From: a virus
Direction: 5' to 3' (one strand)
Virus record (IMG/VR): IMGVR_UViG_3300026518_000047
Coordinates: 1-27,941 of that record
Length of the DNA stretch: 27,941 nt
Part shown: positions 15,222-20,273 of the stretch, piece by piece
Layout of the letters: every line of letters starts with the position of its first letter
Numbering within the stretch: the first letter of the stretch is position 1
Position numbers and translations under genes: made by a program
The notes under the pieces: generated by a model
What the model was told of the DNA's origin: nothing
Database searches by the model: none
Seen by the model: only the letters and a program-made list of their open reading frames with translations

Positions 15222-16907
15222 ATGTTGAAATATAAAGTAACAAAAGAACTACCGCAATTTAATACTACTTCTCCTGTCTTCTTTGATATAGAAACCGAAA
15301 AACTATATTTAGGTACTAGATTAGTACAAGTCTATCAACCTGACACTTCTAACATAGTTTATATTTTAGATACTGATTTAATTAGTTTAGATACTATTAA
15401 AGAGTGGCTTAAAGATAAATGGCTTATAGGTCATGGTTTAACCTATGACTTTGGCACGCTAAATATGACTTCTGCTAAGTTTGATGATACCTTATATTTA
15501 TCTCGTATTGCTTATCCTGAATGGAGAGAATATGGGCTAGATAAAATTATCGATAGAATAGTTCCAGAAGATTTGTATGAAGGATTAGATAAGAAGAAGT
15601 TACAGAAAGCTGGGTTTATTAAAGGTGCTTATTTATCGCAAGCACAGTTAAGATATTCAGCTACCGATGTTTATGCTTTACAATATATCTGGGAACTTAA
15701 AAAGATACAAATTGCTAGAGATAATATGGCATATAAAGTAGATATACTTAATATGAAATATGCTGTAGAGTATCAACAGAATGGCTTAATACCTAATCGT
15801 GAAGACGTTCGTAAAGAGCTAGATAAGCTTGAAGATAAAATTGAAGAAAACTATCAAATTCTAAATGGTGTAAATTGTAACTCTTATAAGCAAGTAAGAG
15901 AAGCACTTAATAGTAATGAGTCTTCTAAAGAATATCTTATTAAAGTTATATCACAGCAAGGTCCTAAGGCTACATTAGCTAAAGCTGTATATGACCAACG
16001 TCGACTACTTAAACGACGTACTATGCTAGAGTCTTATAATAAACCAATAGTATATACTAAGTTTAATGTTGCTGGGGCTATTACAGGTAGGTTCACTAGT
16101 ACTGGTGGCGACTTAGACAATGGTATAAATGCCCAGCAAATTCCACGAGACTTACAATACATATTCAATCAAAATACTGAAGATACTGTAGTAGTACACG
16201 CTGATTATTCTACCGCAGAACTTAGAGCTGGTTGTAGTATTATGCGTGATGAGACTATGTATCAACAGCTTAAAGATGGCATAGACTTACATAAGGTTAG
16301 TGCTTCTTTGGCCACTGGTAAGCCTTTAGAAGACATTACTAAAGAGGATAGACAAAAAGGTAAAGCAGTTAGTTTTGGTTTTATTTTTGGTATGTCAGCA
16401 GCTTCATTCGTTGAGTATGCTTATGTTAACTATGGGGTTATATTTACTGAAGAAGAAGCTAAAATCATTAAGTCTAAATACAATAGTATGTATACTGGGA
16501 TTAGTGCATACCATAAGCTTAAATGGAATACTTATAAAGAGACTCCAGCAGTAACACCTCTAGGGCATATTTGTATGTCTAGGCTTGGTACTGATGCTAT
16601 TAATCATGCCACTCAAGGCGGTATAGCAGAGACTATGAAACTAGCGGTACATTACTTATGTAAAGACTATCCAGAGGCTACTAAGTATATCTTCAATATA
16701 GTACATGATGCAGCTTATATGAGGGTACCAGTAGGAACCCAGAAAGTATGGGCCGATAGATTAGTTAAAGCTATGTTCAAAGGGTGGAAAGAGATTTGTA
16801 AAGTTGAAATGCTTTACTATAAAGATATACCAATGGGTGTTGAGTATGAGTATATAGACCCGGATGGTACTTATGTATGCGAGGAAATATTTGATGGAAA
16901 TAGTTGA
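15222..16907 (+). CDS. Family A DNA polymerase with 3'-5' exonuclease
   Basis: 561 residues, the replicative polymerase and shorter than T7 gp5 (about 700). Exonuclease motifs are all present: Exo I FFDIETE, Exo II GHGLTYDFGTL, Exo III YSATDVYAL. Polymerase motif A is HADYSTAELRAG. Motif B, RQKGKAVSFGFIFGMS, has Phe385 at the Pol I 762 position and Phe389 at the Tyr766 position. Motif C reads VHDAAYM: the metal-binding D496 is kept, but the usual following Glu is Ala497. The shorter length suggests that the T7 thioredoxin-binding loop is absent. The following gene overlaps by 14 bp. The family is certain; the substituted residues may affect fidelity or metal binding. Confidence 0.95.
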   Translation: MLKYKVTKELPQFNTTSPVFFDIETEKLYLGTRLVQVYQPDTSNIVYILDTDLISLDTIKEWLKDKWLIGHGLTYDFGTLNMTSAKFDDTLYLSRIAYPEWREYGLDKIIDRIVPEDLYEGLDKKKLQKAGFIKGAYLSQAQLRYSATDVYALQYIWELKKIQIARDNMAYKVDILNMKYAVEYQQNGLIPNREDVRKELDKLEDKIEENYQILNGVNCNSYKQVREALNSNESSKEYLIKVISQQGPKATLAKAVYDQRRLLKRRTMLESYNKPIVYTKFNVAGAITGRFTSTGGDLDNGINAQQIPRDLQYIFNQNTEDTVVVHADYSTAELRAGCSIMRDETMYQQLKDGIDLHKVSASLATGKPLEDITKEDRQKGKAVSFGFIFGMSAASFVEYAYVNYGVIFTEEEAKIIKSKYNSMYTGISAYHKLKWNTYKETPAVTPLGHICMSRLGTDAINHATQGGIAETMKLAVHYLCKDYPEATKYIFNIVHDAAYMRVPVGTQKVWADRLVKAMFKGWKEICKVEMLYYKDIPMGVEYEYIDPDGTYVCEEIFDGNS

Positions 16908-17769
16908 TATAGATATTGACATAGATGGTAAAGTAATGCCAAAAGAAAATGGTAAGATAGCTCTTATTGATGCTGATACTCTTGCTTATACTAGTTGTCT
17001 ATTAGTAGAGCAGCAAGAGTTTCAGCTAGGCAAAGAGTTTTGTACTGATGAGGAATGGGAAGAGATTATTAAGCATCCTACTTATGATGAAAAAAATCAT
17101 TGCATTTGGACTATTGAGTTAGACCTAGCCTATGATAAAGCTTTAGAGAAGTTACAACGTATTTACGATAAAACTGGTTGTAGGGAATGTGAGATGCATT
17201 TTACTTCTGGTAAAGATAATTTTAGGTATAAAGTAAAATCTGACTATAAGGCTAATAGAACTGGAAGAACCCCAGCAGGCTTAGGAGAACTTAAACGGAG
17301 ATTATTAGATACCTTTGAGGGCACACTTAGCACATCTTGGGAAGCTGATGATGTAGTAGTATGGAAGAAAGAGCAAGACCCTGATAAATATACTATGGTT
17401 GCTATCGATAAAGATTTACTCTATAGTGTTGAAGGTAAGCATTTTAACTACTATGAAAGTAGTAAATTTAAGATAGAAATGAAATGGGTTGAAGTTGATG
17501 CTGAGACTCGCATGAAATGGCCTTATATACAATCAATAGTTGGCGATAAAGTTGATAACATTGAAGGTATTAAAGGTTTAGGCCCTAAGAAGGCTGAAAA
17601 AGTATTTGCCGGGTGTACTACCGAGTTAGAGTGCTGGGAAGCATTAGTTGATTGTTATGAAAGTAATGGTAAGACTATGATAGATGCTTTACAAACTATG
17701 CGCTTAGTAGGAATGCATCAATTTAATGGAAAGGAGATAATATTATGGGACCCTCGGAACTTAGTATAA
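16894..17769 (+). CDS. 5'-3' exonuclease / flap nuclease
   Basis: 291 residues; resembles T7 gp6 and the FEN/5'-nuclease family, which removes RNA primers and degrades host DNA. The ATG at 16894 is preceded by GAGGAAA at about the right spacing. Key acids: IDAD (D26, D28), EADD (E150-D153), DKD (D172, D174) and the helix-hairpin-helix GDKVDNIEGIKGLGPKKAEK (GD at 217-218). The arch region includes YKVKSDYKANR. The C-terminus overlaps the next gene by 25 bp, and the pol, exo, TS-like order is compact and typical of replication-plus-nucleotide operons. The assignment is well supported. Confidence 0.92.
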   Translation: MEIVDIDIDIDGKVMPKENGKIALIDADTLAYTSCLLVEQQEFQLGKEFCTDEEWEEIIKHPTYDEKNHCIWTIELDLAYDKALEKLQRIYDKTGCRECEMHFTSGKDNFRYKVKSDYKANRTGRTPAGLGELKRRLLDTFEGTLSTSWEADDVVVWKKEQDPDKYTMVAIDKDLLYSVEGKHFNYYESSKFKIEMKWVEVDAETRMKWPYIQSIVGDKVDNIEGIKGLGPKKAEKVFAGCTTELECWEALVDCYESNGKTMIDALQTMRLVGMHQFNGKEIILWDPRNLV

Positions 17770-18455
17770 AATATAAAGAATTAGTGAGAACTATTCTTAG
17801 CTATGGTACTATACAAGATTGCCGTAATGGTAAGCAATATATAATTCCTAGTTATAGTTTTACTATTCAAAATATGAAAGAACGACACGAGTTAAAGCTA
17901 CGTAAAATGTATTATAAAGGTGTACTAGGTGAGTTTAATACACTTATAGACCCTAAGCCACTAACTAATGTGGACCAGTTTGAAGCTAATGATTGTAATT
18001 ACTGGAAGGACTGGGCTGGACCTAATGGTGAGTTAACCCTAGATTATCATGATGAGCTACATCCAGCTTTAGCTAATGTTATCCAGCAAATTAAAAATGA
18101 TCCAACTAGTAGAAGACATGTAATTAGTCTTTGGAATAATGAGCATGCTTTTGATGGCTCACTTAGTTTACATTGTTGTTGGCATAATCTAACATTTAGT
18201 GTTATTAATGGAGCACTACATCTTACTTGGACTCAACGTAGTGTTGATACTATGGTAGGATTGCCTAGTGACATATATCTTGCATACCTCTTTATGAGAT
18301 ATGTTTCATTACACTGTGGCTTAGAGATAGGTAGTTGTATGTTTGCATTAAGCAACGTTCATATTTATGAAGAGCATGTAGTAGGAGCCAAAGAACTTCT
18401 TAAAAGAACTGAAGCTGACTATGATAAACCACTTAAATTTCAATTAAAGGCTTAA
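17745..18455 (+). CDS. Thymidylate-synthase-family enzyme, predicted dCMP-specific
   Basis: 236 residues in the TS/dCMP hydroxymethylase family. The phosphate-binding SRRHVISLWN, nucleophile Cys145 (HCCWH), QRSVD and HIY are all present. At the base-recognition site, RSVDTMVGLPSDI aligns without gaps to the TS motif R-S-x-D-x-x-L-G-L-P-F-N-I: the conserved Asn is Asp176 and the preceding Phe is Ser175. In this family Asn gives dUMP specificity and Asp gives dCMP specificity (T4 dCMP hydroxymethylase; engineered Asn-to-Asp TS). The product is therefore predicted to be 5-hydroxymethyl- or 5-methyl-dCMP, not dTMP. The usual His after the catalytic Cys is Trp146. It overlaps the exonuclease gene by 25 bp. 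dUMP activity is not excluded. Confidence 0.88.
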   Translation: MGPSELSIKYKELVRTILSYGTIQDCRNGKQYIIPSYSFTIQNMKERHELKLRKMYYKGVLGEFNTLIDPKPLTNVDQFEANDCNYWKDWAGPNGELTLDYHDELHPALANVIQQIKNDPTSRRHVISLWNNEHAFDGSLSLHCCWHNLTFSVINGALHLTWTQRSVDTMVGLPSDIYLAYLFMRYVSLHCGLEIGSCMFALSNVHIYEEHVVGAKELLKRTEADYDKPLKFQLKA

Positions 18456-18457
18456 CT

Positions 18458-18814
18458 ATGAAAGTAGGAACTATATTACTTACTAAAAGTAATAAATATG
18501 TAGATGATAATGGTAATTTACCAAAGCGTCCCAGGTTTGATAAAGACCTATTAAAAGGGCTACTAAATGTAGAGGTGGTAACAGTTTCAGAGAAAGCTTA
18601 TAATATGTTACCACCATCAATGCAAAAACTTGTGCTCTGTTTAGGTAACGATTTTAGTATTTTCCCAATTACTATTGAAGAATTAGAGAATACTAGTTTG
18701 TTAATAGTAGTTAGAAGTACAGAAGATTTTGAAGGGGGTAAAGAATTTAGATTAGATAATTTTAAACAATTAGTAAAGGATAGAAGGATTGAACTATGGG
18801 TGAAAAAGAATTAG
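18458..18814 (+). CDS. Possible DHFR-like remnant or unknown protein
   Basis: 118 residues, two bases after the TS-like gene. NGNLPKRPRFDKDLLKGLLN, then EVVTVSEKAYNMLP, follows the order of the dihydrofolate reductase N-terminal half (N-x-x-P-W...D...FK...MG...T...LP), but without the W, T and MG signature residues and about 40 residues shorter than usual. It could be a degenerate DHFR-fold protein, an unrelated small protein, or one with a new function. DHFR is often paired with TS, which supports the idea weakly. The downstream gene overlaps it by 19 bp. Confidence 0.4.
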   Translation: MKVGTILLTKSNKYVDDNGNLPKRPRFDKDLLKGLLNVEVVTVSEKAYNMLPPSMQKLVLCLGNDFSIFPITIEELENTSLLIVVRSTEDFEGGKEFRLDNFKQLVKDRRIELWVKKN

Positions 18815-19407
18815 AGCAAGAAGCTTTAAAAGAGGCTGCAAAATCACTATGTAAAAAACGTAAAGTAGGTGCTATTATAGTTGATATAGACGGTAATATA
18901 CTTAGCCGTGGTCATAACTATAATATAGCACCAGGTGAGGTAGAGTGTGAAAGTCCTAATGGAGAAACACTAAATTCTATAATTCATGCTGAAGTAGCAG
19001 CTATAGATGTATTAAGTCCAGCTTTAGAAGACCTAGCAAATACTATATTCGTTACTCACTTCCCATGTGAGAATTGCCAAAAAGAAATTAATAAACTTGG
19101 GCTACAAGTTAAAGTAGTAACTGAGTTTATGAAGTTTGACAAGGGGAAGTTACGTTATAGTTTGATACCACCTGAGGCTATGAGGGCCTTAGCAGAGGTA
19201 TTAACTTATGGCGCTAAAAAATATAAGCCAAATAACTGGCAGCAAGTAAATGATACATCAAGATATGTAGATGCCTTATATCGCCATCTAGAAGCTTGGA
19301 GAAGTGACGAGAAGGTTGATGAAGAGAGCGGGTTACCACATTTAGCACATGCTTTGACTAATATCGCATTTTTAATCTATTTTGAGACTGATAAATCTCA
19401 AAATTAG
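18796..19407 (+). CDS. Deaminase fused to dNTP diphosphohydrolase-like domain
   Basis: 203 residues in two parts. Residues about 1-110 form a dCMP-deaminase-type domain with the zinc motif HAEVAAID (H64, E66) and PCENC (C91, C94), and no other known insert. Residues about 113-203 (KFDKGKLRYSLIPPEAMRAL, then YGAKKYKPNNWQ, RHLEAW, GLPHLAHAL) match the phage dATP/dGTP diphosphohydrolase N-terminal-type domain (DUF5664). The fusion would turn dCMP into dUMP and hydrolyse a dNTP in one protein, both altering the pools used by the TS-like enzyme next door. The start has AAGGA upstream. Substrates are inferred from family only. Confidence 0.82.
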   Translation: MGEKELEQEALKEAAKSLCKKRKVGAIIVDIDGNILSRGHNYNIAPGEVECESPNGETLNSIIHAEVAAIDVLSPALEDLANTIFVTHFPCENCQKEINKLGLQVKVVTEFMKFDKGKLRYSLIPPEAMRALAEVLTYGAKKYKPNNWQQVNDTSRYVDALYRHLEAWRSDEKVDEESGLPHLAHALTNIAFLIYFETDKSQN

Positions 19408-19516: not shown

Positions 19517-19747
19517 ATGAAGATAGAAGACTATGTGAACAAAAAGTTCGAAGAAGACCAGCTTGGTAGAGAGATAGCTGAGCATTTAGGTATATCAGTA
19601 TCTATGGTTTCAGCCTATAGAAAGGGTGATTATAATCCTAGTTTAGAAGTTGCTAAAAAGATATATGCTATGGAAGGAATAGTGTTTCACCCATTTAGTA
19701 AAGAAGGACTTGAAGAAGAAATAAGAAAGGATAGAAGATATGCGTAA
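19517..19747 (+). CDS. XRE (Cro/CI-type) helix-turn-helix regulator
   Basis: 76 residues with AAAGGAGAG upstream. Residues about 17-37 (GREIAEHLGISVSMVSAYRKG) form a clear lambda-repressor-like HTH, and the rest of the five-helix fold follows (DYNPSLEVAKKIYAM). It is a single domain with no sensory or dimerisation extension visible apart from a short acidic tail. It could regulate the nucleotide operon or act as a Cro-like switch. The preceding gap carries inverted repeats that might be its operator. It overlaps the next gene by 8 bp. Confidence 0.85.
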   Translation: MKIEDYVNKKFEEDQLGREIAEHLGISVSMVSAYRKGDYNPSLEVAKKIYAMEGIVFHPFSKEGLEEEIRKDRRYA

Positions 19748-20273
19748 TTTAAAAGAACTACAAGAAAAGACACTAACTTGGGCTCACCAAAGAGGAATTC
19801 TAACTAACGGTAAGGCAACTACACAAGCCTTAAAATTAGTTAGCGAGGCTGGAGAGCTATGCCAACATCACCTCGAAGCTAAAGACATTAAAGACGACAT
19901 AGGAGATTGTTTAGTTGTACTTACTAACTTATCTTCCTTGACTAAATGTGACTTTGATGCTTCTATAGCCATCAAGAATAAGCCGGTATTAGTTGGAGAT
20001 ATCTGGTATATGATAGTTAAGCTTAACTCTATATTAGGTAACTTATGTGATAATGTAGCTAAAGATCTTTCTATAGAGGCTGAGATATATTATTCTTTCT
20101 ACATCTTGACTGCTATTGCTGATTTAAAAGATACTACACTTGAAGAGTGTTGGAACCTAGCCTATAATGATATTAAAGACCGTAAAGGTTTCTTAAATGC
20201 CCAGGGTAATTTTATTAAGTCTACAGATGCAAACTATGAACAACTCCTTATGGAATTTGAGGCAGGTAATTAA
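19740..20273 (+). CDS. MazG-like nucleotide pyrophosphohydrolase
   Basis: 177 residues; hydrolyses a (d)NTP to the monophosphate and pyrophosphate. The metal-binding E-x2-E (SEAGE, E36 and E39) and the later D-x2-D (DDIGD, D53 and D56) are present, with the WAHQRGILTNGKATTQALKL start seen in phage MazG-like proteins. The C-terminal ~100 residues are longer than a minimal MazG and include a helical repeat that may complete the dimer. It lies in the nucleotide cassette with the TS-like enzyme and deaminase fusion, and would help reshape the dNTP pool. The precise substrate cannot be read from sequence. Confidence 0.82.
   Translation: MRNLKELQEKTLTWAHQRGILTNGKATTQALKLVSEAGELCQHHLEAKDIKDDIGDCLVVLTNLSSLTKCDFDASIAIKNKPVLVGDIWYMIVKLNSILGNLCDNVAKDLSIEAEIYYSFYILTAIADLKDTTLEECWNLAYNDIKDRKGFLNAQGNFIKSTDANYEQLLMEFEAGN

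Follow-up and report, generated by a model that had tools for sequence, protein, structure and literature searches.

We asked whether the thymidylate synthase (TS)-family gene on a viral genome fragment makes thymidylate for the phage or supplies a modified cytosine nucleotide. The window, meaning the whole viral record that was analysed (27.9 kb; G+C 34.5%), derives from a short-tailed bacteriophage which, like a large family of relatives, probably carries altered cytosine, a change that would shield the phage DNA from bacterial restriction enzymes. To our knowledge, phages in which the complete replacement of cytosine is understood are few (T-even, Xp12). A first-pass annotation, made from the sequence alone, had predicted that the enzyme acts on cytosine and that the phage may carry 5-hydroxymethyl- or 5-methylcytosine.

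Identification of the thymidylate synthase-like protein

The open reading frame at 17745-18455 (+) encodes a protein of 236 amino acids, with an ATG preceded by AAAGGAGATAATATT, a good ribosome-binding site. The protein matched PF00303 in Pfam (E = 2.4e-36) and phrog_160 among the PHROGs, and its best PDB sequence match was the TS of Escherichia coli (EcTS; phmmer, 3e-17). Structure prediction, proposed in the first-pass annotation as a check, returned a TS fold, with an AlphaFold2 model (pLDDT 88.8) that aligned to EcTS with a VIA Z of 26.4 and an rmsd of 1.8 over 225 residues. The final model residue, 236, paired with EcTS 264 in this alignment, so the C-terminal tail of TS is present. Given the strength of the PF00303 and phmmer matches and the structural Z, a chance match is excluded and the protein is a true homologue of the TS family.

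The residues expected of a TS fold were all found, namely the catalytic Cys, the Arg quartet, Glu58, Tyr94, Asp169 and His207/Tyr209 (EcTS numbers), and in its own numbering the window enzyme retained R27, E63, W87, W90, Y101, R123, R124, R165, S166, D168, H206 and Y208. The EcTS sequence used for numbering was typed by hand and agrees with PDB 1an5 over residues 4-216; the E. coli dihydrofolate reductase (EcDHFR) sequence was likewise typed by hand.

Active-site residues

Around the base-recognition site the window sequence Q-R-S-V-D-T-M-V-G-L-P-S-D aligned without gaps to Q-R-S-C-D-V-F-L-G-L-P-F-N of EcTS. This placed Asp176 (codon 18270-18272, +) on EcTS Asn177, the residue of uracil recognition, and on Asp179 of the T4 dCMP hydroxymethylase gp42, with Ser175 on EcTS Phe176. 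The catalytic Cys145 and the following Trp146 (18177-18182, +) correspond to EcTS Cys146 and His147. Each residue named in the first-pass annotation (Asp for Asn in the gap-free R-S-x-D...G-L-P motif, Ser for Phe, Trp for His) was correct, as was its statement that T4 dCMP hydroxymethylase shares the Asn-to-Asp change. Two further positions were of interest, Leu142 (18168-18170, +), which aligned to EcTS Leu143, and the pair Asp100-Tyr101 (18042-18047, +), which aligned to Val93-Tyr94. The CMP hydroxymethylase MilA also has Asp at the cytosine position (PMC5175136) and differs from the window enzyme in its ribose pocket, where Lys133 and Ala176 of MilA are replaced by Arg124 and Ser166 (EcTS Arg127 and Ser167). 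From these residues the pocket is predicted to be of the deoxyribose type.

Conservation and phylogeny

The first alignment held ten relatives with 53-74% identity to the window protein (except L012), and more were added later. In the resulting window clade (n = 14) the residues at EcTS positions 177, 147 and 93 were Asp, Trp and Asp, respectively, in 14/14 sequences. In a set of 14 related genomes, each carried one TS-family gene and none carried ThyX. A wider scan based on aligned podophage homologues recovered 80 further loci, of which 78 had Asp and two Asn at position 177, and all 80 had Asp at position 93. Asp177, Asp93 and Trp83 lay outside the search pattern, whereas the conservation of Leu143, Cys145 and His147 in these 80 loci was partly built into it. 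Position 147 was His in the wider clade compared to Trp in the window clade. The counterpart of Asp100 was thus invariant in 94 clade sequences, and it was absent from all other TS-family proteins compared. The two loci with Asn at 177 (L102 and L103) kept Asp93, as if they had reverted to uracil; no dCMP deaminase was seen adjoining either of them (tblastn, within about 3 kb).

The wider clade included the podophages PH1 (Pseudoalteromonas), KF-1, IW-1 and ETP-1 (Edwardsiella), VPMS1 (Vibrio) and Amaethon (Dickeya), as well as Pelagibacter phage Kolga. Their enzymes are annotated as thymidylate synthase, or as 'pyrimidine hmase' in MW202665. They share Asp177, Asp93 and Leu143 with the window enzyme and, in the podophages, the same replication gene order, but they are only 32-37% identical to it, still have His147, and possess a C-terminal region of full length.

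In a tree of 65 rows the window and the wider homologues, including PH1, KF-1 and VPMS1, formed one clade (support 100/99) beside ordinary TS, while T4 gp42, 44RR gp42 and the Eleri protein formed a separate clade (100/98). The tree placement suggested by the first-pass annotation therefore did not put the enzyme with the T4 type, although an AU test did not reject that grouping (P = 0.18). Stenotrophomonas phage AXL1 branched apart from the window clade on a very distant branch (2.3), and grouping with it was also not rejected (P = 0.052). On this tree the window clade likely arose independently of both the T4 type and AXL1. Of the typical TS from phages or bacteria included in this tree, 7/7 had Asn at 177.

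Predicted substrate

Recognition of cytosine instead of uracil is known to be determined by an Asn-to-Asp change at EcTS position 177 (PMC5175136, PMC8670742). In T4 gp42, Asp179 binds cytosine through N3 and the 4-amino group (PMC6841964); the same cytosine-recognising Asp, Asp186 in MilA, is common to MilA and BcmA (PMC5175136). The Asn177Asp substitution is described as switching TS to dCMP with 5mdCMP as the product (Hardy 1992; Liu and Santi 1992, as cited in PMC8670742). In the MetaGPA study of 433 metagenomic TS sequences, positions 177 and 147 were the top two separating cytosine-modified from unmodified contigs, and the modified contigs carried TS together with dCMP deaminase and pyrophosphohydrolase domains (PMC8670742). 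Both marker positions are altered in the window enzyme (Asp176 and Trp146). Because Asp176 occupies the place of Asn177, is conserved in the clade and is accompanied by the other catalytic and dNMP-binding residues, we consider dCMP the very probable substrate. The cytosine substrate predicted by the first-pass annotation thus gains support from an established determinant, from clade-wide conservation and from a dCMP deaminase/NTP pyrophosphatase neighbourhood like that of AXL1.

An enzyme that converts dUMP, delivered by the dCMP deaminase, into dTMP and merely tolerates Asp at 177 would agree with the TS annotation given to the family everywhere, with the absence of ThyX from the related phages and with a dCMP deaminase and a DHFR-fold protein as classical neighbours of the dTMP pathway. 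It would, however, have to work without the Asn that determines uracil recognition and that all seven typical enzymes of the tree possess. The Asp is held across a large clade with no drift, and the second marker, His147, has changed as well; an ordinary thymidylate synthase is accordingly improbable.

Neighbouring genes

The TS-like gene lies in a block of replication and nucleotide genes on the same strand. Upstream, a family A DNA polymerase (15222-16907, +; PF00476, 1.1e-35), part of a conserved block with synteny in relatives, is followed by a 5'-3' exonuclease (16864-17769, +; phrog_107, 1.1e-45) whose end extends past the ATG of the TS-like gene. Downstream of the DHFR-fold gene described below is a dCMP deaminase fused to a DUF5664 dATP/dGTP diphosphohydrolase domain (18796-19407, +; PF00383, 2.6e-15; PF18909, 1e-33), with the HAE and PCxxC motifs present, and then a MazG-like NTP pyrophosphatase (19740-20273, +; phrog_1992, 2.7e-45), a candidate dCTP remover. 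In the wider clade a dCMP deaminase was found within about 3 kb at 44/80 loci and an NTP pyrophosphatase likewise at 44/80 (tblastn; some loci truncated). AXL1 has DHFR, dCMP deaminase, TS with Asp177 and NTP pyrophosphohydrolase genes side by side in that order. The MazG-like protein of the window has 177 amino acids compared to about 116 in several relatives, and the extra stretch, also found in L012 and L035, resembles a partial internal repeat. A small helix-turn-helix-like protein (19517-19747), kept in most close relatives, is encoded between the deaminase and MazG genes.

T4 uses an enzyme of the dNMP kinase class for hmdCMP. No dNMP kinase was found in the window, and a search of 21 + 50 records gave one convincing case outside T4, a dNMP kinase-like gene in the relative L035 (L035:4697-5230; PF21448, E = 2e-8). 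It lies directly 3' of the enzyme gene, in the slot that the DHFR-fold gene occupies in relatives.

The 118-amino-acid protein encoded directly after the TS-like gene (18458-18814, +) itself matched nothing in Pfam or the PHROGs. Its AlphaFold2 model (pLDDT 78.5, pTM 0.66) retrieved only DHFR or DHFR-TS structures among the top 50 Foldseek matches (best E = 6.4e-5) and aligned to DHFR with a VIA Z of 9.1, and its relative in L012 matched the DHFR family phrog_316 at 1.2e-5. The assignment to DHFR comes from this fold and the L012 match. Against the curated cut-off of Pfam DHFR_1 (PF00186; 25 bits) the window protein gave no match and the L012 protein reached 16.2 bits. Neither a PDB sequence search nor a comparison of the family profile with an alignment of three DHFR sequences was informative. 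In the alignment with EcDHFR, the Gly-Gly NADPH region was left unmatched. The gene follows the TS-like gene in 12 of the 14 window-clade members, and it is also present in L012. A DHFR family search of 28 genomes gave weak matches only, in AXL1, L012 and KF-1; in the wider clade no DHFR was recognised save the weak KF-1 match, which lies elsewhere in that genome. The model is that of a truncated DHFR fold, and since the protein is truncated and was not found in the wider clade, it may be inactive.

Predicted product and its fate

The first-pass annotation left the choice between hydroxymethylation and methylation open and drew on the analogy to T4. The analogy held for Asp at 177 and failed at the remaining hydroxymethylase features. 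Kim and colleagues (PMC6400193) described the hydroxymethylase signature as an acidic residue, Asp or Glu, at the third position ahead of the catalytic Cys (Cys-3; T4 Asp145), a Ser-x-Tyr motif and a missing TS tail; they reported that D145N abolishes T4 dCH activity and that T4 Ser94, equivalent to EcTS Val93, bonds to Asp145. In the window enzyme the Cys-3 residue is Leu142, the T4 Ser94-x-Tyr96 segment (Ser/Thr two before the catalytic Tyr) is replaced by Leu99-Asp100-Tyr101, and the tail is kept. Across the family, Cys-3 was Asp in T4 gp42, 44RR and Eleri, and also in the uracil-specific SPO1 gp29; Leu in the TS of E. coli, RB69 and a Geobacillus phage, as in the window; and Asn in AXL1. 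T4 gp42 shares with the window enzyme its TS family, Asp at 177, the Cys and the arginines, and differs by Asp145, Ser94, Val85, the missing tail and its separate clade. E. coli ThyA shares the fold, Leu143, Trp80/83 and the tail, and differs by Asn177, His147, Phe176 and Val93.

Because the enzyme has a TS-type hydride-transfer pocket (Leu142, Trp87, Trp90 and the C-terminal tail), 5-methyl-dCMP is our first-choice product, held at about an even chance; the second option of the first-pass annotation is thus favoured and the hydroxymethyl option weakened. In the proposed reaction Cys145 would attack C6 of dCMP while Asp176 holds the cytosine N3 and 4-amino group, methylene-THF would give its one-carbon unit to C5, and the methylene would be reduced to methyl as THF is oxidised to DHF. 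After phosphorylation, the resulting 5-methyl-dCMP would take the place of cytosine in the phage DNA. The DHFR-fold neighbour may act in folate turnover, and the dCMP deaminase and the MazG and DUF5664 domains may shape the pool by removing dCTP and returning dCMP; we infer these roles from the sequence and from the literature on relatives. AXL1, which stood for the Xp12 group in our comparisons, is related to Xp12, a phage in whose DNA all cytosine is 5-methylcytosine, and AXL1 DNA resists cutting at most C-containing restriction sites (PMC9206674). AXL1 gp63 has Asp at 177, the feature of the Xp12-type dCMP methylase that the window enzyme also shows. The known 5-methylcytosine type is not identical to it, however, since AXL1 has Asn and not Leu at Cys-3, with Phe for Trp83, Pro for His147 and Ala for Val93. 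The truncation of the DHFR-like protein, its restriction to part of the clade and the lack of a dedicated dNMP kinase in the window also count against this reading, as do the two wider loci (L102 and L103) with Asn at 177.

The alternative with a serious, though smaller, chance is a T4 gp42-like dCMP hydroxymethylase in which the water-activating acid has moved to Asp100, giving 5-hydroxymethyl-dCMP and THF. Asp100 takes the place of the Asp145 partner Ser94, is invariant in this clade and is absent from the other TS-family proteins compared, and judging from published structures it could provide the acid from the opposite side; 5hmC is moreover used by many cytosine-modified phages. Such an enzyme would act with Leu in place of an acid whose loss kills the T4 enzyme, while keeping the TS-type Trp90 and tail. 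It would render the DHFR-fold neighbour useless, and no glycosyl- or carbamoyltransferase was recognised among the window proteins scanned. A modified nucleotide pool that serves signalling or defence blocking, with cytosine in the DNA not replaced, would fit the missing kinase and dCTP-removing genes that are candidates only. The gene is flanked by DNA polymerase and exonuclease genes on one side and by nucleotide pyrophosphatase genes on the other, and in one relative a dNMP kinase gene adjoins it; this arrangement suits incorporation into DNA, and we regard the pool-only role as very improbable. In the open-access literature we found no biochemical or base-composition data for phages of the clade. 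Restriction digests of KF-1-like phages were likewise not found there, nor does the KF-1/IW-1 announcement report any. Taking the favoured methyl reading further, we tentatively propose, as a fuller picture that is itself rather unlikely to hold entire, that a widespread, mostly podophage clade became specific for cytosine separately from T4 and Xp12, combining a TS-type pocket, Asp100 as a new invariant active-site residue and a shrunken DHFR-fold partner with DNA filled with 5-methylcytosine.

Related phages and host

Phage TS with Asp177 is already known as a marker of modified cytosine (PMC8670742). Apparently new, as no prior description was found in open-access papers, are a large clade, mostly of podophages and including isolates, whose enzymes are annotated as TS and combine Asp177, Leu143, Asp93 and Cys145, and the hidden DHFR-fold gene beside the enzyme in the window sub-clade. 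If the prediction is true, lytic, cultivable podophages that infect Edwardsiella, Vibrio, Pseudoalteromonas and Dickeya and are at present recorded with a plain TS would be phages with modified DNA, with consequences for restriction, for modification-dependent defence and for sequencing. The combination of Asp177, Leu143 and Asp93 would offer a direct test of the choice between methyl and hydroxymethyl in the TS family.

A Campylobacterota host, as assumed in the first-pass annotation, was neither supported nor excluded, and the searches gave no host evidence. A TS-family scan of genome contigs gave no match, a DNA polymerase scan of genome contigs found only distant bacterial and MAG polymerases (≤29% identity in the best segments), and no tRNA was found in the window. 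The nearest isolated phages infect Gammaproteobacteria.

Three further phages gave minor observations. Salmonella phage renfri (Rosemountvirus) has an annotated TS with Asp at 177, Leu143 and Tyr147 that is possibly of the dCMP type. Bacteroides phage p00 (L128, 295-933) encodes a short TS-like protein that carries L-P-S-D and whose gene adjoins one for a DNA methyltransferase; in the alignment the TS-like protein had neither Tyr94 nor the Arg pair. Microbacterium phage Eleri (L027, 2971-3735) has an annotated TS with Asp177, Asp at Cys-3 and Ser-x-Tyr, the full T4-type signature, and with a glycosyltransferase and MazG nearby it is likely an hmC phage.
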